Assembly: GCA_023267755.1 (NCBI GenBank)
Contig: JAHFMR010000006.1
Span: 1-41,270 of the forward strand
Origin: a bacterium
Lineage (GTDB): Bacteria > Patescibacteriota > Minisyncoccia > Phycocordibacterales > Phycocordibacteraceae
Length of the DNA stretch: 41,270 bases
Direction: 5' to 3'
Below the pieces are notes generated by a model. The model saw nothing but the letters and a program-made list of their open reading frames with translations, did not search any database and had not been told where the DNA came from. Below, piece by piece: positions 5,664-35,861 of the stretch (its first letter is position 1; each line of letters opens with the position of its first letter). Both the position numbers and the translations under genes were made by a program.

Positions 5664-6715
5664 TCTCCTTGATAGAGCTCCAGGACCGCAAGCTCCAGAG
5701 GTAGGGCGGGGATTGGCGCGTAACGGATGCGTTCTGCAGCAGTAAGGAAGGCAAGCATCGTCGCGTGAGTAATGTGGGACATCGTAAGTCCCACATTAGG
5801 GTTGGCGAACTTCTCAAGCGCAGCGAACTCATCAGTGCCAAGCTCTTGCTCGAGCTCTTCGCGCAGATCAGGCGCGTAGCGGATAAGCAGTGTGGTGCGC
5901 AGGGCCTCGAGCACCAGCTCGAGATAGAGCTTCATATCCGCACCGGCCTTTGCTGTCTTCTCGATAGCGGCGAGCGCCTTGCCTCGCTCGCCCGCGGCGA
6001 GCGCGCTGATGAGCGCGTGTACCTGTTCCTGTTTAGGCGCTCCCGTCACCTCCTCGACTATCTCGCGTGAGAGTTGCTTGGAGGTCCGGCCTCCAAGTGT
6101 TTTTTGGAGGATCGAGAGCGCGTCGCGATATGAACCGTCGCCCAGAAGCGCAATAAGCTCGGCGGCATCTGGAGCGAGCGTGTAGCCCTCCTTCTTCGCG
6201 ACTGCCACGACCATTTTGGCCGCTACAGCACGCGTCGGCTTCTTAAACTCGAACACCTGACAACGTGATTGCACGGTCTCGGGTACCTTCTCGAGCTCGG
6301 TCGTCGCGAGGATAAAGACTGCGTGTGCGGGCGGCTCCTCGAGCGTCTTGAGAAAGGCGTTCCACGCGCCCTTGGAGAGCATATGCACCTCGTCGAGAAT
6401 GTAGACCTTGTAGGGAGAGGAGAACGGGAGCGTGTAGACACCCTCGGTGAGCGCGCGGATATCCTCGACACTATTGTTACTCGCGGCATCAATCTCGTAG
6501 AGATCATTCTCACCACAGCCGATCTCGCGCGCGAAGATGCGTGCCACTGAGGTCTTACCTAGCCCGCGACTACCGGCAAAGAGGTAGGCGTGCCCGATTG
6601 TTTTACTCCTCGCTGCCTCTGCAAGCGGCTTGGTGACCTGCTCCTGCCCGACAACATCTGCGAAGGTCGCAGGTCGATGCGTTCTATATAAACTCTGATG
6701 CGCCATAGTGTCCAA
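5660..6715 (-). CDS. dnaX: DNA polymerase III subunit gamma/tau (short form)
   Basis: SLYRTHRPATFADVVGQEQVTKPL, GSRGLGKTSVARIFA, YEIDAASNNSVEDIRAL, VYILDEVHMLSKGAWNAFLKTLEEPP, ATTELEKVPETVQSRCQ. Confidence 0.95.
   Translation of the reverse strand: MDTMAHQSLYRTHRPATFADVVGQEQVTKPLAEAARSKTIGHAYLFAGSRGLGKTSVARIFAREIGCGENDLYEIDAASNNSVEDIRALTEGVYTLPFSSPYKVYILDEVHMLSKGAWNAFLKTLEEPPAHAVFILATTELEKVPETVQSRCQVFEFKKPTRAVAAKMVVAVAKKEGYTLAPDAAELIALLGDGSYRDALSILQKTLGGRTSKQLSREIVEEVTGAPKQEQVHALISALAAGERGKALAAIEKTAKAGADMKLYLELVLEALRTTLLIRYAPDLREELEQELGTDEFAALEKFANPNVGLTMSHITHATMLAFLTAAERIRYAPIPALPLELAVLELYQGE
5770..5798. repeat. In-gene palindrome in dnaX, 11-bp perfect arms
   Basis: taatgtgggac-atcgtaa-gtcccacatta; the GGGACATCGTAAGTCCC core recurs at 41217-41233. 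Confidence 0.85.
6077..6097. repeat. In-gene palindrome in dnaX, 8-bp perfect arms
   Basis: cttggagg-tccgg-cctccaag. Confidence 0.55.
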
Positions 6716-11292: not shown

Positions 11293-12063
11293 ATGAAAAT
11301 CTATTCCTGGAATATGCTGTACCGCAATAAGCGCCTCGATGAGGCCTTTACCTTTGTATCGAAGTCAGACTTCGATATTTTCTGTCTCCAAGAAGTGCCG
11401 GTTGAGTTCCTTGCACGCTTACGCACGCTCCCCTTCCATCTGGCAGAGACGATTGACGTCGAACGATTGCTCGGTGAAGTGAAGCGCAATCATCTTGTCA
11501 TTCTCTCTCGCAATGCTATCAAGAATCAAAGCGTCATCCCATTTCCTAATTATTGGCCGCTCTTACCGTGGCGCACCCACCTGTTCGTGCGTAGTATGCG
11601 ACCGTGGTTCTGGTCAAAGATTCAGAACCGCAGCGCGCTTTATGTAGATAGTATGGTCGGCGAGAGACTGGTGCGCGTGTTCAATTTACACACCGCCATC
11701 ACCCGAGTAGACTGGCGCATCCGCGAGTTCGAACAAACAATGGCCGAGCGCGACCCGACACTACCGACGATTGTCTGCGGTGACTTCAACGTGATGGAAT
11801 CTCCGAAAGTGTCGATATTGAATTGGCTCGTCGGCGGAAAGATAGGCGATGCGCTACGCTTTACGCGCGAGCGAACGCGTCTCGAGAAGCATTTTGTCGA
11901 ACACGAGCTGATGAATCCGCTTCGCGGAGTAACGACCCATCCCTTCTCGCGGAGTCAGCTCGACCACATCCTCGTCTCCAACTCTTTCTCAATACAAAAC
12001 GCCCTTGTCCTCAACGACCGCCACGGCTCTGACCATCATCCTATTTCTGTCGAAATCTTATAG
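11293..12063 (+). CDS. Endonuclease/exonuclease/phosphatase family protein
   Basis: MKIYSWNMLYRN, FDIFCLQEV, TIVCGDFNVMESP, SQLDHILVSN, GSDHHPISVEI. Confidence 0.9.
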   Translation: MKIYSWNMLYRNKRLDEAFTFVSKSDFDIFCLQEVPVEFLARLRTLPFHLAETIDVERLLGEVKRNHLVILSRNAIKNQSVIPFPNYWPLLPWRTHLFVRSMRPWFWSKIQNRSALYVDSMVGERLVRVFNLHTAITRVDWRIREFEQTMAERDPTLPTIVCGDFNVMESPKVSILNWLVGGKIGDALRFTRERTRLEKHFVEHELMNPLRGVTTHPFSRSQLDHILVSNSFSIQNALVLNDRHGSDHHPISVEIL

Positions 12064-12106: not shown

Positions 12107-14536
12107 ATGAGTAACCGCTTACTTATCGTCGAGTCGCCCACCAAGGCGCGTACCATTGGCAATTATTTAGGCAAGGGCTATACGGTCCTCGCCTCGGTGG
12201 GCCACGTGCGCGACCTCCCCAAAACGAATAAAGACGCGGTAGATATTGAGGGCGGCTTTATCCCACGCTACGTAATCCCCGCCGAGAAGCGTGAGATAAT
12301 CGAGAAGATCCAGCATGCCGCCGCCAAGGCCGACGAGATCTATCTCGCGACCGACCCCGATCGCGAAGGCGAGGCTATCGCCTGGCACATTAAGGAGGTC
12401 GCCAAGCTGAAGAAGCCTAAGCGCGTCGCCTTCCACGAAATAACCAAGGCTGCTATCGAAGAGGCGCTTGCCCACCCGCGCACTATCGATGAACACTTGC
12501 GCGAGGCGCAAGAGGCACGGCGCGTACTCGATCGCATCGTCGGCTACGACCTCTCCGGTCTCATCTGGAAGAAGGTCCGCTACGGTCTCTCGGCCGGCCG
12601 CGTACAGAGCCCCGCGCTCCGCATCCTCGCTGAGCGCGAGCGCGAGATTAAAGCATTCATCCCGGTAACCTATTTCGTATTGAGCGCGCTCTTCCGCTCC
12701 AAGACCGGCGACCTCGCGACGACCTGTACCGAAGAGCCTAAGACGCGCGAGGAGGCCGATCGAATCGTAAACACGGGTCGAAGCGCCGCATGGAGCGTAG
12801 CCGATATAAACGAGCGCGCCGAAGAGCGTAACCCGCGACCGCCCTTCACCACCTCGACCCTCCAACAGACTGCGTCGACCCGGCTCGGCTTCGCCCCCTC
12901 ACGCACGATGCGTGCTGCGCAGAAGCTCTACGAGGCCGGTCATATCACCTATATGCGTACCGACTCGGTAAATCTTGGTGCAGAGGCTGTCGCGAAGATG
13001 GCGAGCGTTGTCGAGAAACAATTCGGCAAGGACTATGTGCAGGTGCGCGTCTATAAAACGACAAGTAAGAATGCGCAGGAAGCGCACGAAGCTGTCCGCC
13101 CCACCGACCCTTCTCACGAGCGCGCGGGCGCGACATCCGACGAGGTGGAGCTCTACGCGCTTATTCGCACTCGTGCGCTCGCCTCGCAGATGGCCGCTGC
13201 CAAGGTGATGCGCACGTCGGTGAGTGCGAAGGCCGACAAGGCAGATATTCCGTTCTTCACCGCGAACGGTTCGCGCACTCTCTTTCCTGGCTGGCTTGCG
13301 CTCGACACCGCTGCACGCGGTGAGGATGTCGAGCTCCCAAAGCTCGTTGTCGGCGACTCCCTCTCGCTCATCTCACTCGCAGCAGAGGAGAAGCAGACCG
13401 AGCCGCCAAATCGCTACACCGAAGCAGGGCTTATCAAGGAGCTGGAGAAACGTGGTATCGGCCGCCCTTCGACCTACGCGTCTATTATGAAGACGATTCA
13501 GGATCGCGGCTATGTAGAAAAGCTCGGCCGCGCACTGAAGCCCACTGCCACCGGTATGGTCGTCTCGGGCTGGCTCGAGGAACACTTCCCGCAGTACGTG
13601 AGCGACACCTTCACCGCCGAGATGGAGAACGAGCTCGATGAGATAGCACGCGGCGAGCGTGGCTACACACAAACACTGCAGGAATTTTATGGCCCCTTTG
13701 AGAAGGCGGTGCGTGCTAAGGATAAATTGCCTAAGGCCACATCGCTCGGCGATGTGCCAAGCGAATTCCCCTGCCCGCTGTGCGGCAGCCCGATGGAGTT
13801 TAAGCTCGGTCGTGGCGGTGTCTTTATGAGCTGTAAGAAGTATCCCGAATGCCTGGGCGCCCGCACCGAAGAAGGACTCGAGCTTAAGGGTGATGAGCCG
13901 ATCGGTGTGCACCCAGAAACTGGCGCACCTATTTATATAAAGACCGGAAGATTCGGCCCGTATGTTGAAATGGCTCTCCCAGAACCCGAATCAAGGTTCG
14001 ACCTTAAATCCGAATCCTCAAGGTCGAACCTTGATTCGGATGAAAAAGAATCGAAGAAGAAAACGCCGGCCAAACGTGGTAAGGGTCGCCCCAAAACGGC
14101 CGCCAAGCGCGCGAGCATCCCTGCCGGCACCGATCTTGCGGGTGTTACACTCGCCGATGCAGTGCGCTATCTCTCGCTCCCGCGCGAGCTGGGGATGCAC
14201 CCGAGTACCGGCAAACCCGTCTTCGCCTCAACCGGACGATTCGGTCCGTATGTCGGCAGCGACGGTGAGTTCCGCTCGCTCAAGGCCGCGGTCGGCGAAC
14301 CCTACACTATCACCCTCGACCAAGCACTCACGCTCCTCGCTGAGCCGAAGAAGCCGCCGAAGGGTGTTGAGATTGTACGAGAGATTGGCAAGCACCCGAA
14401 GACCGGCAAGGTCATCTCACTCTACAAGTCGAAGCAGGGTTACTTCCTCAAGAAAGGTCTCCGTCGTATTTATCTCCCTGATTCCGTCGCTCCCGACGCG
14501 CTCACTCCCCCAGAAGCAGCTGAATATTTGAAATAA
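12107..14536 (+). CDS. topA: DNA topoisomerase I
   Basis: LLIVESPTKARTIGNYLGKGYTVLASVGHVRDLP; DREGEAIAWHIKE; ITYMRTDSVNLG; CPLCGSPMEFKLGRGGVFMSCKKYPEC; C-terminal repeat modules. Confidence 0.98.
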   Translation: MSNRLLIVESPTKARTIGNYLGKGYTVLASVGHVRDLPKTNKDAVDIEGGFIPRYVIPAEKREIIEKIQHAAAKADEIYLATDPDREGEAIAWHIKEVAKLKKPKRVAFHEITKAAIEEALAHPRTIDEHLREAQEARRVLDRIVGYDLSGLIWKKVRYGLSAGRVQSPALRILAEREREIKAFIPVTYFVLSALFRSKTGDLATTCTEEPKTREEADRIVNTGRSAAWSVADINERAEERNPRPPFTTSTLQQTASTRLGFAPSRTMRAAQKLYEAGHITYMRTDSVNLGAEAVAKMASVVEKQFGKDYVQVRVYKTTSKNAQEAHEAVRPTDPSHERAGATSDEVELYALIRTRALASQMAAAKVMRTSVSAKADKADIPFFTANGSRTLFPGWLALDTAARGEDVELPKLVVGDSLSLISLAAEEKQTEPPNRYTEAGLIKELEKRGIGRPSTYASIMKTIQDRGYVEKLGRALKPTATGMVVSGWLEEHFPQYVSDTFTAEMENELDEIARGERGYTQTLQEFYGPFEKAVRAKDKLPKATSLGDVPSEFPCPLCGSPMEFKLGRGGVFMSCKKYPECLGARTEEGLELKGDEPIGVHPETGAPIYIKTGRFGPYVEMALPEPESRFDLKSESSRSNLDSDEKESKKKTPAKRGKGRPKTAAKRASIPAGTDLAGVTLADAVRYLSLPRELGMHPSTGKPVFASTGRFGPYVGSDGEFRSLKAAVGEPYTITLDQALTLLAEPKKPPKGVEIVREIGKHPKTGKVISLYKSKQGYFLKKGLRRIYLPDSVAPDALTPPEAAEYLK
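13986..14039. repeat. In-frame palindromic element in topA: 20-bp perfect arms, 14-nt spacer
   Basis: ccgaatcaaggttcgacctt - aaatccgaatcctc - aaggtcgaaccttgattcgg; each arm is itself a mini-hairpin (AAGGT-NNN-ACCTT). Confidence 0.92.
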
Positions 14537-18017: not shown

Positions 18018-18890
18018 ATGTTGAAAATCTTGTGCATCGCAGGGCCGACCGCCTCAGGCAAGTCAAGTCGAGCTGTCGAAGAAGCGCTCGCGCGTGATGG
18101 TGAGGTTATTTCTATCGACTCACGTCAGGTCTATCGCGGGCTCGATATCGGGACCGAGAAGATATCGGCTACCGAAATGCGCGGCGTGCCGCACCATCTA
18201 ATAGATATCCGCAATCCCGAGGAGAATTATTCTGCCGGCGACTTTGTCACCGATGCAATACGCTTGATTGAAGAAATCACAGCGCGTGGGAACCTGCCGA
18301 TACTTGTCGGCGGGACGCACTTCTACTTCGATGCGCTTCTTAACGGCCTCCCAATCGGTGTCGACGCCAATCCGCAGCTGCGTGAAGAGCTCGAGCAGCT
18401 CTCGACCGAGGAGCTGTATGCGCGCGTCCGCCAAGCGGACGCGCGCCGTGCCGCAGAGCTGGACCCGCAGAACCGTCGCCGACTTATCCGCGCGCTCGAG
18501 ATTATCGCCTCCCTTGGGCACGTTCCACTCCGACACGAGGGGCACCCTCGTGCTGCACGAGGGTGCCCCTCGTGGGAGGTCGAGTGGATAGTGATTGACC
18601 CGTCGCGTGAAGAGCTGCGAGAGAGAATTAACACACGTCTCGCCACCGCCTTTAAGCGTGACCTCATCGAGGAGGTGCGCCAGGTGCGTACCCGTGTCGG
18701 CGATACGCGCCTTAACGAGCTTGGGCTCGAATATAGAATAGTCGGCGAGTACGTGTCCTCCTCCGCTGAAGCTACGGAGGACACGGCGCGTATCCAAGAA
18801 AAATTATTGCCGGTTCTATCGGCGAAGCTTTGGCAGTATGCCCGCCGCCAGAAAGCCTGGCTCCGCAAGCTTGGCCACTCGGCGTCCTAA
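18018..18890 (+). CDS. miaA: tRNA dimethylallyltransferase
   Basis: IAGPTASGKSSRAVEEAL, VISIDSRQVYRGLDIGTEK, GVPHHLIDIRNPEENYSAGDF, LPILVGGTHFYFDALLNGLP. Confidence 0.96.
   Translation: MLKILCIAGPTASGKSSRAVEEALARDGEVISIDSRQVYRGLDIGTEKISATEMRGVPHHLIDIRNPEENYSAGDFVTDAIRLIEEITARGNLPILVGGTHFYFDALLNGLPIGVDANPQLREELEQLSTEELYARVRQADARRAAELDPQNRRRLIRALEIIASLGHVPLRHEGHPRAARGCPSWEVEWIVIDPSREELRERINTRLATAFKRDLIEEVRQVRTRVGDTRLNELGLEYRIVGEYVSSSAEATEDTARIQEKLLPVLSAKLWQYARRQKAWLRKLGHSAS
18420..18446. repeat. In-frame palindrome 1 in miaA, 12-bp perfect arms
   Basis: gcgcgcgtccgc-caa-gcggacgcgcgc. Confidence 0.85.
18534..18574. repeat. In-frame palindromic element 2 in miaA, 20-bp perfect arms, 1-nt centre
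   Basis: cacgaggggcaccctcgtgc-t-gcacgagggtgcccctcgtg; each arm holds a mini-hairpin CACGAGG-GGCAC-CCTCGTG. Confidence 0.95.
18752..18785. repeat. In-frame palindrome 3 in miaA, 10-bp perfect outer arms
   Basis: cgtgtcctcc-tccgctgaagctac-ggaggacacg, encoding SSSAEATEDT. Confidence 0.85.
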
Positions 18891-35133: not shown

Positions 35134-35152
35134 TACAAGGTTCAACCTTGTA
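35134..35152. repeat. RAYT-associated palindrome copy 1 (upstream)
   Basis: tacaaggtt-c-aaccttgta, 9-bp perfect arms. Confidence 0.9.
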
Positions 35153-35164
35153 AAAATATACCGC

Positions 35165-35170
35165 TATAAT
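35165..35170 (+). promoter_or_regulatory. Perfect TATAAT -10 box of the transposase gene, 10 nt upstream of its ATG
   Basis: ccgcTATAATaaggggtgctATG. Confidence 0.65.
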
Positions 35171-35180
35171 AAGGGGTGCT

Positions 35181-35840
35181 ATGGCACGCACTTTTTCATT
35201 CGCTCCCGGTGAGTTTTATCACTTGTATAATCGCGGCACAGAAAAGCGGAATATATTCACTTCTAAAGCAGACCGCGACCGGTTCCTTACGCTTCTCTAC
35301 CTAGCAAACCAAGACATTCCCGCTGACTTAAAATTACAAGGTTCAACCTTGTTAGAGATAGTGAAACCAAAAGCGGGAGCTCCGCTTGTCGAGATCGTCT
35401 GTTATTGCCTCATGCCGAATCATTTCCACTTACTAGTACGCGAATTAGAAGACGGTGGGATTAGTAAATTTATGCAAAAAATTACGACTGGATACACGAT
35501 GTATTTCAATAAACGCTCCGACCGGAATGGCGCTCTCTTCCAAGGAAGATTTAAAGCGACTCACGTAGCTGATGATCGATACCTGCGCTACCTCATCTCA
35601 TACATTCATCTAAACCCTGTAAAACTTATCGAACCAAAGTGGAAAGAGACGGGTATTGCCAATCAAGTACACGCCGAGCGCTACCTCGAGACATATACTG
35701 CTTCAAGTTATCCCGATTATCTAGGTAAAAAACGCGCTGAAGGAATGATTCTTACTAAAGAAGCTCTGCCCGAATATTTCTCCTCTGGCTCCGACTTCAA
35801 AACCTTCGTCACAGAATGGCTTACCTATAAGTCCGATTAG
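35181..35840 (+). CDS. REP-associated tyrosine transposase (RAYT; Y1/IS200-like HUH transposase)
   Basis: FYHLYNRGTEKRNIF; HUH motif LMPNHFHLLV; catalytic Tyr region KITTGYTMYFNKR; FQGRFKATHV...YLRYLISYIHLNPVK. Confidence 0.93.
   Translation: MARTFSFAPGEFYHLYNRGTEKRNIFTSKADRDRFLTLLYLANQDIPADLKLQGSTLLEIVKPKAGAPLVEIVCYCLMPNHFHLLVRELEDGGISKFMQKITTGYTMYFNKRSDRNGALFQGRFKATHVADDRYLRYLISYIHLNPVKLIEPKWKETGIANQVHAERYLETYTASSYPDYLGKKRAEGMILTKEALPEYFSSGSDFKTFVTEWLTYKSD
35336..35352. repeat. RAYT-associated palindrome copy 2 (inside the transposase gene)
   Basis: acaaggtt-c-aaccttgt, 8-bp perfect arms, encoding LQGSTLL just upstream of the HUH motif. Confidence 0.9.
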
Positions 35841-35861
35841 TACAAGGTTCAACCTTGTACT
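35839..35861. repeat. RAYT-associated palindrome copy 3 (overlaps the transposase stop codon)
   Basis: agtacaaggtt-c-aaccttgtact, 11-bp perfect arms. Confidence 0.92.

Follow-up and report, generated by a model that had tools for sequence, protein, structure and literature searches.

The RAYT-type transposase gene found at positions 35181-35840 of the forward strand in the window (the whole stretch of 41,270 nucleotides analysed here, contig C15 of a 583-kb genome, G000, that is 98.7% complete) carries a REP-like palindrome at three places, upstream of the start codon, in frame inside the coding sequence and at the stop codon. Among relatives the three copies are found at the same locations and match each other, the internal one is conserved at the nucleotide level, and all three have changed in concert without leaving their place. 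That they change together suggests that the enzyme acts on its own gene, which is probably subject to autoregulation by the RAYT.

The initial annotation had called this open reading frame a RAYT transposase gene, a claim borne out by a match to the Y1 transposase family above its cut-off (Pfam PF01797, E 3e-10) and by structure. The AlphaFold model of the 219-residue product (pLDDT 90.8) had as best PDB match in a fold search 4er8, the E. coli RAYT with a REP hairpin (E 7e-6), and it was this search that gave the identification, a sequence search of the PDB having returned only a weak match (E 0.59). The protein combines the Y1_Tnp domain and its HUH motif with one probable catalytic tyrosine (H81, H83 and Y141 over 65 sequences). 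Its score on NCBIfam REP_Tyr_transpos, 51 bits, lies under the cut-off of 80, which is a curated annotation threshold and no biological feature, and Patescibacteria sequences may escape the model. The GTAG or GTGG foot of canonical REP hairpins occurs only sporadically in the flanks of 30 RAYTs and, according to the part of the HUH classification that we consulted (PMC6006769), is also missing from some known RAYT subclasses, so that the window gene would be a RAYT of a non-canonical subclass. The elements of the locus are:

35134..35152, no strand: upstream REP-like palindrome TACAAGGTTCAACCTTGTA, perfect, with arms of 9 bp, over the -35/spacer region
35165..35170, forward strand: TATAAT, a probable -10 box 16 bp before the ATG, pointing to a near-leaderless transcript (from the sequence; relatives similar)
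35336..35352, no strand: internal in-frame palindrome ACAAGGTTCAACCTTGT, perfect, with arms of 8 bp
35421..35429, forward strand: codons of the HUH motif (H81-F82-H83), H83 being invariant and H81 nearly so in 65 RAYTs
35601..35603, forward strand: probable catalytic tyrosine Y141, invariant in 65 RAYTs and placed in helix 132-144 of the model
35839..35861, no strand: downstream palindrome AGTACAAGGTTCAACCTTGTACT, perfect, with arms of 11 bp, abutting the stop codon with an overlap of 2 bases

The positions of the three palindromes and their perfect arms of 9, 8 and 11 bp agree with the initial annotation, which was less exact about their surroundings. The internal copy, written by the codons CAA GGT TCA ACC TTG (QGSTL, residues 53-57), had been placed next to the HUH motif, and it lies instead 24 residues before H81-H83, in a loop of the model between helix 29-41 and strand 70-77. 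The third copy was said to lie across the stop codon; the overlap is real, but it is limited to the final two bases of the TAG (35838-35840), and the 19-bp core of the palindrome begins directly 3′ of the stop. Both flanks of the gene hold matching REP palindromes, an arrangement already known for RAYTs, which are flanked by two REPs coevolving with them (PMC2817692). The window contains 5 sites of CAAGGTTSAACCTTG with up to 2 mismatches, compared with 0.03 expected from dinucleotide shuffles. Palindromes arising by chance were ruled out by this expectation, by a reversed control run genome-wide and by counts of hairpins in windows, the last two given below.

A search for relatives yielded 80 close RAYTs from Kaiser-, Zambryski-, Yonath-, Taylor-, Nomura-, Vogel-, Lloyd-, Adler- and Ryanbacteria, among others. 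Because a loop like TTCGA, mismatched at its centre, escapes a search for perfect palindromes, stem-loops were searched for instead. In this way, an apical stem common to the upstream and downstream hairpins was found in 72 of 105 RAYT loci, and 41 of the 105 RAYTs have an internal hairpin with the apical stem of their own flanks, whereas permutation of the flanks gave 4.7 on average and at most 13. When the flanks were ignored altogether, a hairpin with a stem of at least 7 appeared at nt 135-215 of the gene in 52 of 147 RAYTs, against 3-10 in other windows of equal size, and 40 of these 52 hairpins match their own flanks within one base of 13. Taking only Patescibacteria RAYTs with matching flanks, 43 of 89 have their own palindrome inside the ORF, and 38 of the 45 copies fall in one and the same loop; the arrangement, initially described as unusual, is accordingly not rare inside this clade, where about half of such RAYTs possess it. 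In other Patescibacteria classes, internal copies of the own type recur near nt 150-200, 284 and 457-485, with two copies in several RAYTs, and another RAYT of the same genome (contig C5, L123) has its own-type copy at nt 169. The rayT of E. coli K-12, our single control, has flanking REPs, and no internal REP was found in it.

Several observations indicate that the internal copy is no ordinary piece of coding sequence. In eight orthologues a single codon is used throughout at 4 of 4 conserved palindrome residues, compared with 7 of 106 residues elsewhere (~6e-5 by chance); in other words, among 110 invariant degenerate residues only 11 keep one codon, and these include the 4 of the palindrome. 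Free variation at synonymous sites, which would have told against the initial annotation, is thus not what the copy shows. Hairpins of the own type reach a density of 0.80/kb in the RAYT ORF and of 0.072/kb in the surrounding 0.2-2.5 kb, an 11-fold difference. Local hopping around the RAYT was considered and ruled out by the rarity of own-type copies in those adjoining 0.2-2.5 kb. On the other side, the internal copy is dispensable, because about half of the RAYTs have none.

The strongest case for concerted change is the synteny of five orthologues, the window gene (L044) and L045, L049, L050 and L127, all of them located between the same methyltransferase gene and gyrA. These five carry three versions of the palindrome, ACAAGGTTCAACCTTGT, ACAAGGTCGAACCTTGT or CCAAGGTCGAACCTTGG (on either strand), and in each gene all three places are alike. 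That the internal copy follows the flanks in syntenic orthologues fits a gene that would serve as a site for its own product. A phylogeny of 99 RAYTs provided 15 independent pairs whose flanking cores are not the same, and in 15 of 15 the internal copies show the corresponding difference. The selection of internal copies enters in part into this test, and its unconditioned counterpart is the flank-blind count at nt 135-215. Moreover, the RAYT copies of G000 are of the TTCAA type and most dispersed copies of the TTCGA type, and the change is therefore confined to the gene. The suggestion that the palindromes define the ends of a mobile unit found no support, as the gene keeps the same neighbours in several species.

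If the initial annotation was right, the motif should also be in excess outside this locus, and this is the case: with up to 2 mismatches allowed, the 583-kb genome has 14 sites, whereas the reversed control gives none, and 38 of 106 genomes of the family have the motif, with up to 25 exact copies each. A RAYT match was obtained in 35 of the 38 motif-positive genomes, compared with 27 of the 68 others. Outside the RAYT most sites of G000 are in frame in housekeeping genes, whose names were assigned by reading translations, as pairs in dnaG, topA and uvrA and as singles in tyrS, eno and recG. The inverted pairs of this genome are 42 bp long, exactly 14 codons, as in the window:

13992..14033, no strand: 42-bp inverted pair of the same palindrome family, in frame in topA (ESRFDLKSESSRSNLD), from the motif search

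In all, 20 inverted pairs were counted, 13 of them of 42 bp, and like REPINs they consist of two inverted REPs with a short spacer and are dispersed with similar spacers, which suggests that a pair may move as a unit. The dispersed copies of relatives fall in def, dnaG, tsaD, topA, uvrB, uvrC, alaS, mutY, tyrS, leuS, dusB, tgt, miaA and other genes, and alignments of UvrC and UvrB show the palindrome inserted in a variable loop. In dispersed singles the outer base pair agrees with the type of RAYT that the genome has: G036 and G010 show A/T in 10 of 10 cases, whereas G065 and G062 show C/G in 5 of 8 and no A/T. In G036, where two RAYTs coexist, each has its own three copies and its own dispersed copies. 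Such a dispersal of cognate REPs over the genome is a further trait of RAYT systems.

A pair of a different REP type occurs in the window:

18534..18574, no strand: 41-bp inverted pair CGAGGGTGCCCCTCG in the miaA ORF, matching the flanks of the RAYT at C5:3009-3563

The genome has 15 copies of this type, and the same miaA loop holds a CAAGGTT-type palindrome in G010. At 5770-5798 of the window, the hairpin TAATGTGGGACATCGTAAGTCCCACATTA, which ends an ORF resembling DNA polymerase III gamma/tau (minus strand), is similar to the palindrome of the third RAYT of G000 (C5:12370-12951), and a perfect palindrome, TATCGAAGTCAGACTTCGATA, lies at 11357-11377 in an endonuclease/exonuclease/phosphatase-like ORF. 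Depending on the species, the UvrC loop (L235-L264) contains palindromes of at least 3 unrelated families, of the CAAGGT, GTGGACATCGGATATCCAC and CCCTTCGACAAGCTCAGGGC types. Many inverted pairs (L090, L091, L095, L096, L099, L100, L107, L108) have extra complementary bases outside the two palindromes, with a median of ~6, which gives the impression of an inverted copy of the flank. Another palindromic in-frame insert, encoding GGHLVSTHLDTRCPP or similar, occurs in several genes, including uvrB of G065 (L205) and tsaD (L091).

Our preferred reading, to which we would give not quite an even chance, is that of a REPtron, or REP/RAYT system, in which the RAYT protein would recognise sites in the very gene that encodes it. 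A Y1 HUH enzyme would recognise a short hairpin with a 3-nt loop, and its gene has this hairpin at three fixed places, namely on the promoter, within the ORF and by the stop codon. Further cognate hairpins are dispersed over the genome, often in frame at positions that code for surface loops of essential proteins. The copies of the gene would be kept since the RAYT protein binds them, most likely in negative autoregulation: upstream, the protein would bind an operator in the promoter, and at the internal and 3′ copies it would find its sites in the gene while this is transcribed or single-stranded. If the RAYT binds all three, a RAYT with drifting specificity would drag all three along. Recognition by the protein, autoregulation and maintenance by selection are what we infer from comparing sequences. 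As for the operator, a -10-like box lies 12-16 bp 5′ of the start codon in most of the 76 loci with a matched upstream copy, and therefore the transcript is probably near-leaderless. The centre of the upstream hairpin has a median position of -36.5 from the start codon in 76 RAYTs, over the -35 or spacer region, and RAYT protein bound there could repress its own promoter. The RAYTs studied so far bind single-stranded DNA hairpins and not double-stranded operators (PMC8266576), which counts against this reading.

The main rival is concerted change without function, in which the RAYT would cut at the feet of the hairpins and rejoin them, swapping or re-inserting copies near its gene, so that the internal copy would be a harmless resident of a tolerant loop (codons 50-65), updated by the enzyme. 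We consider it a serious contender, somewhat less likely than the preferred reading. The E. coli RAYT does cleave and rejoin REPs in vitro (PMC8266576), and the orientation of the loop flips between orthologues, as expected of hairpin exchange. The internal copy is either near-perfect or gone, a bimodal presence, and other slots of the ORF have been taken independently. Moreover, palindromes recur at one loop in each of several housekeeping genes, tyrS, eno, uvrC and miaA, and a permissive hot spot can yield part of the pattern. In eno (L317, L321) and tyrS (L347, L348, L360 and L368, taking only alignment rows with a conserved SLAEALV context) a single palindrome even replaces a stretch of equal length with no net insertion, at the same place across different species and with different palindrome types. 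Exchange of this kind, however, does not sit well with the 11-fold scarcity of own-type copies in the adjoining DNA, nor with the dispersed copies of G000, which have not been converted to the current type of the RAYT. In addition, 38 of the 40 flank-matching copies at nt 135-215 (slot 1) share one reading phase, whereas among dispersed copies in confirmed genes two frames are similarly frequent (13 and 15 cases, with a single one in the third frame). Unconverted dispersed copies, the single phase and the density contrast together speak for maintenance specific to this locus.

An RNA hairpin in the RAYT mRNA, affecting stability, translation speed or 3′ termination and matching the flanks by shared descent, seems improbable to us. 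The internal and downstream copies are within the transcript, and a role in mRNA is attributed to REPs elsewhere (PMC3733652); a generic hairpin, however, needs a stem and not a 13-nt core in common with a promoter copy that is probably untranscribed. More doubtful still is horizontal transfer of the palindrome-gene-palindrome unit, in which internal and flanking copies would match because they travelled together: RAYTs are patchy within the genus, yet simultaneous change in place, with three palindrome versions among five orthologues that have the same neighbours, is left unexplained. Block transfer as the sole cause was rejected on the synteny of these orthologues. Finally, a constraint at the protein level, with the loop requiring a [QK]G[RS]T[LF] peptide and codon choice producing the palindrome incidentally, is hardly credible, since codons are fixed at the palindrome residues and vary at 99 of 106 other invariant ones, since covariation of the internal sequence with the flanks refutes it as a full explanation, and since the QGKSF, HGKTL, EGRTF or similar peptides often retained at that site by RAYTs with no palindrome, which would favour it, look like decayed palindromes.

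The preferred reading, a RAYT acting on its own gene, has much in common with the REPtrons of E. coli rayT and the Stenotrophomonas RAYTs (PMC2817692, PMC8266576): a Y1 HUH enzyme is encoded between two REP hairpins, the gene coevolves with these REPs, further copies of the hairpin are dispersed and, as in S. maltophilia REPs, the stem is ~8 bp long with a loop of 3 nt. It differs in the third cognate hairpin, which lies in the ORF and tracks the flanks, in the ~10-40 copies per genome, known REPs exceeding 100, and in the NCBIfam score below cut-off. Intragenic REPs are also known from other bacteria, many of them in repair and replication genes, and the consulted part of PMC3733652 describes monomers and dimers in uvrA, uvrB and others, some of which recur at much the same position in related species; here, in contrast, about one in three genomes of a single Patescibacteria family has them, 42-bp inverted pairs being frequent, and the RAYT gene itself is among their hosts, which that part does not report. 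With REPINs and BIMEs the pairs share two inverted hairpins, a short spacer and dispersal, but they measure mostly only 41-43 bp, are in frame in genes and have no GTAG ends. The palindromic elements of Rickettsia (RPEs) are similar by behaviour only, as in-frame palindromes in ORFs of a reduced genome, and we know of no transposase for them, whereas the palindromes described here match the flanks of their own RAYT. The consulted part of the HUH classification paper (PMC6006769) mentions neither an internal copy nor these phyla, and the openly available journal literature yielded no account of such repeats from Kaiserbacteria or other Patescibacteria; an in-ORF cognate REP in step with the flanks appears to be undescribed there.

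The locus touches two open questions, how RAYTs and REPs stay matched over the long term and how a domesticated transposase is restrained. With three sites of one gene co-changing in place, enzyme specificity, expression control and site evolution become testable in a small locus, in organisms with tiny genomes whose essential genes include REPs in their reading frames. For the Patescibacteria at large we would suggest, more tentatively than for the window gene, that the built-in third REP copy of RAYT genes is a self-recognition site, ancestral and then lost and regained in other loops, so that specificity, operator and in-ORF hairpin may form one coevolving unit that limits the transposase via its own gene.
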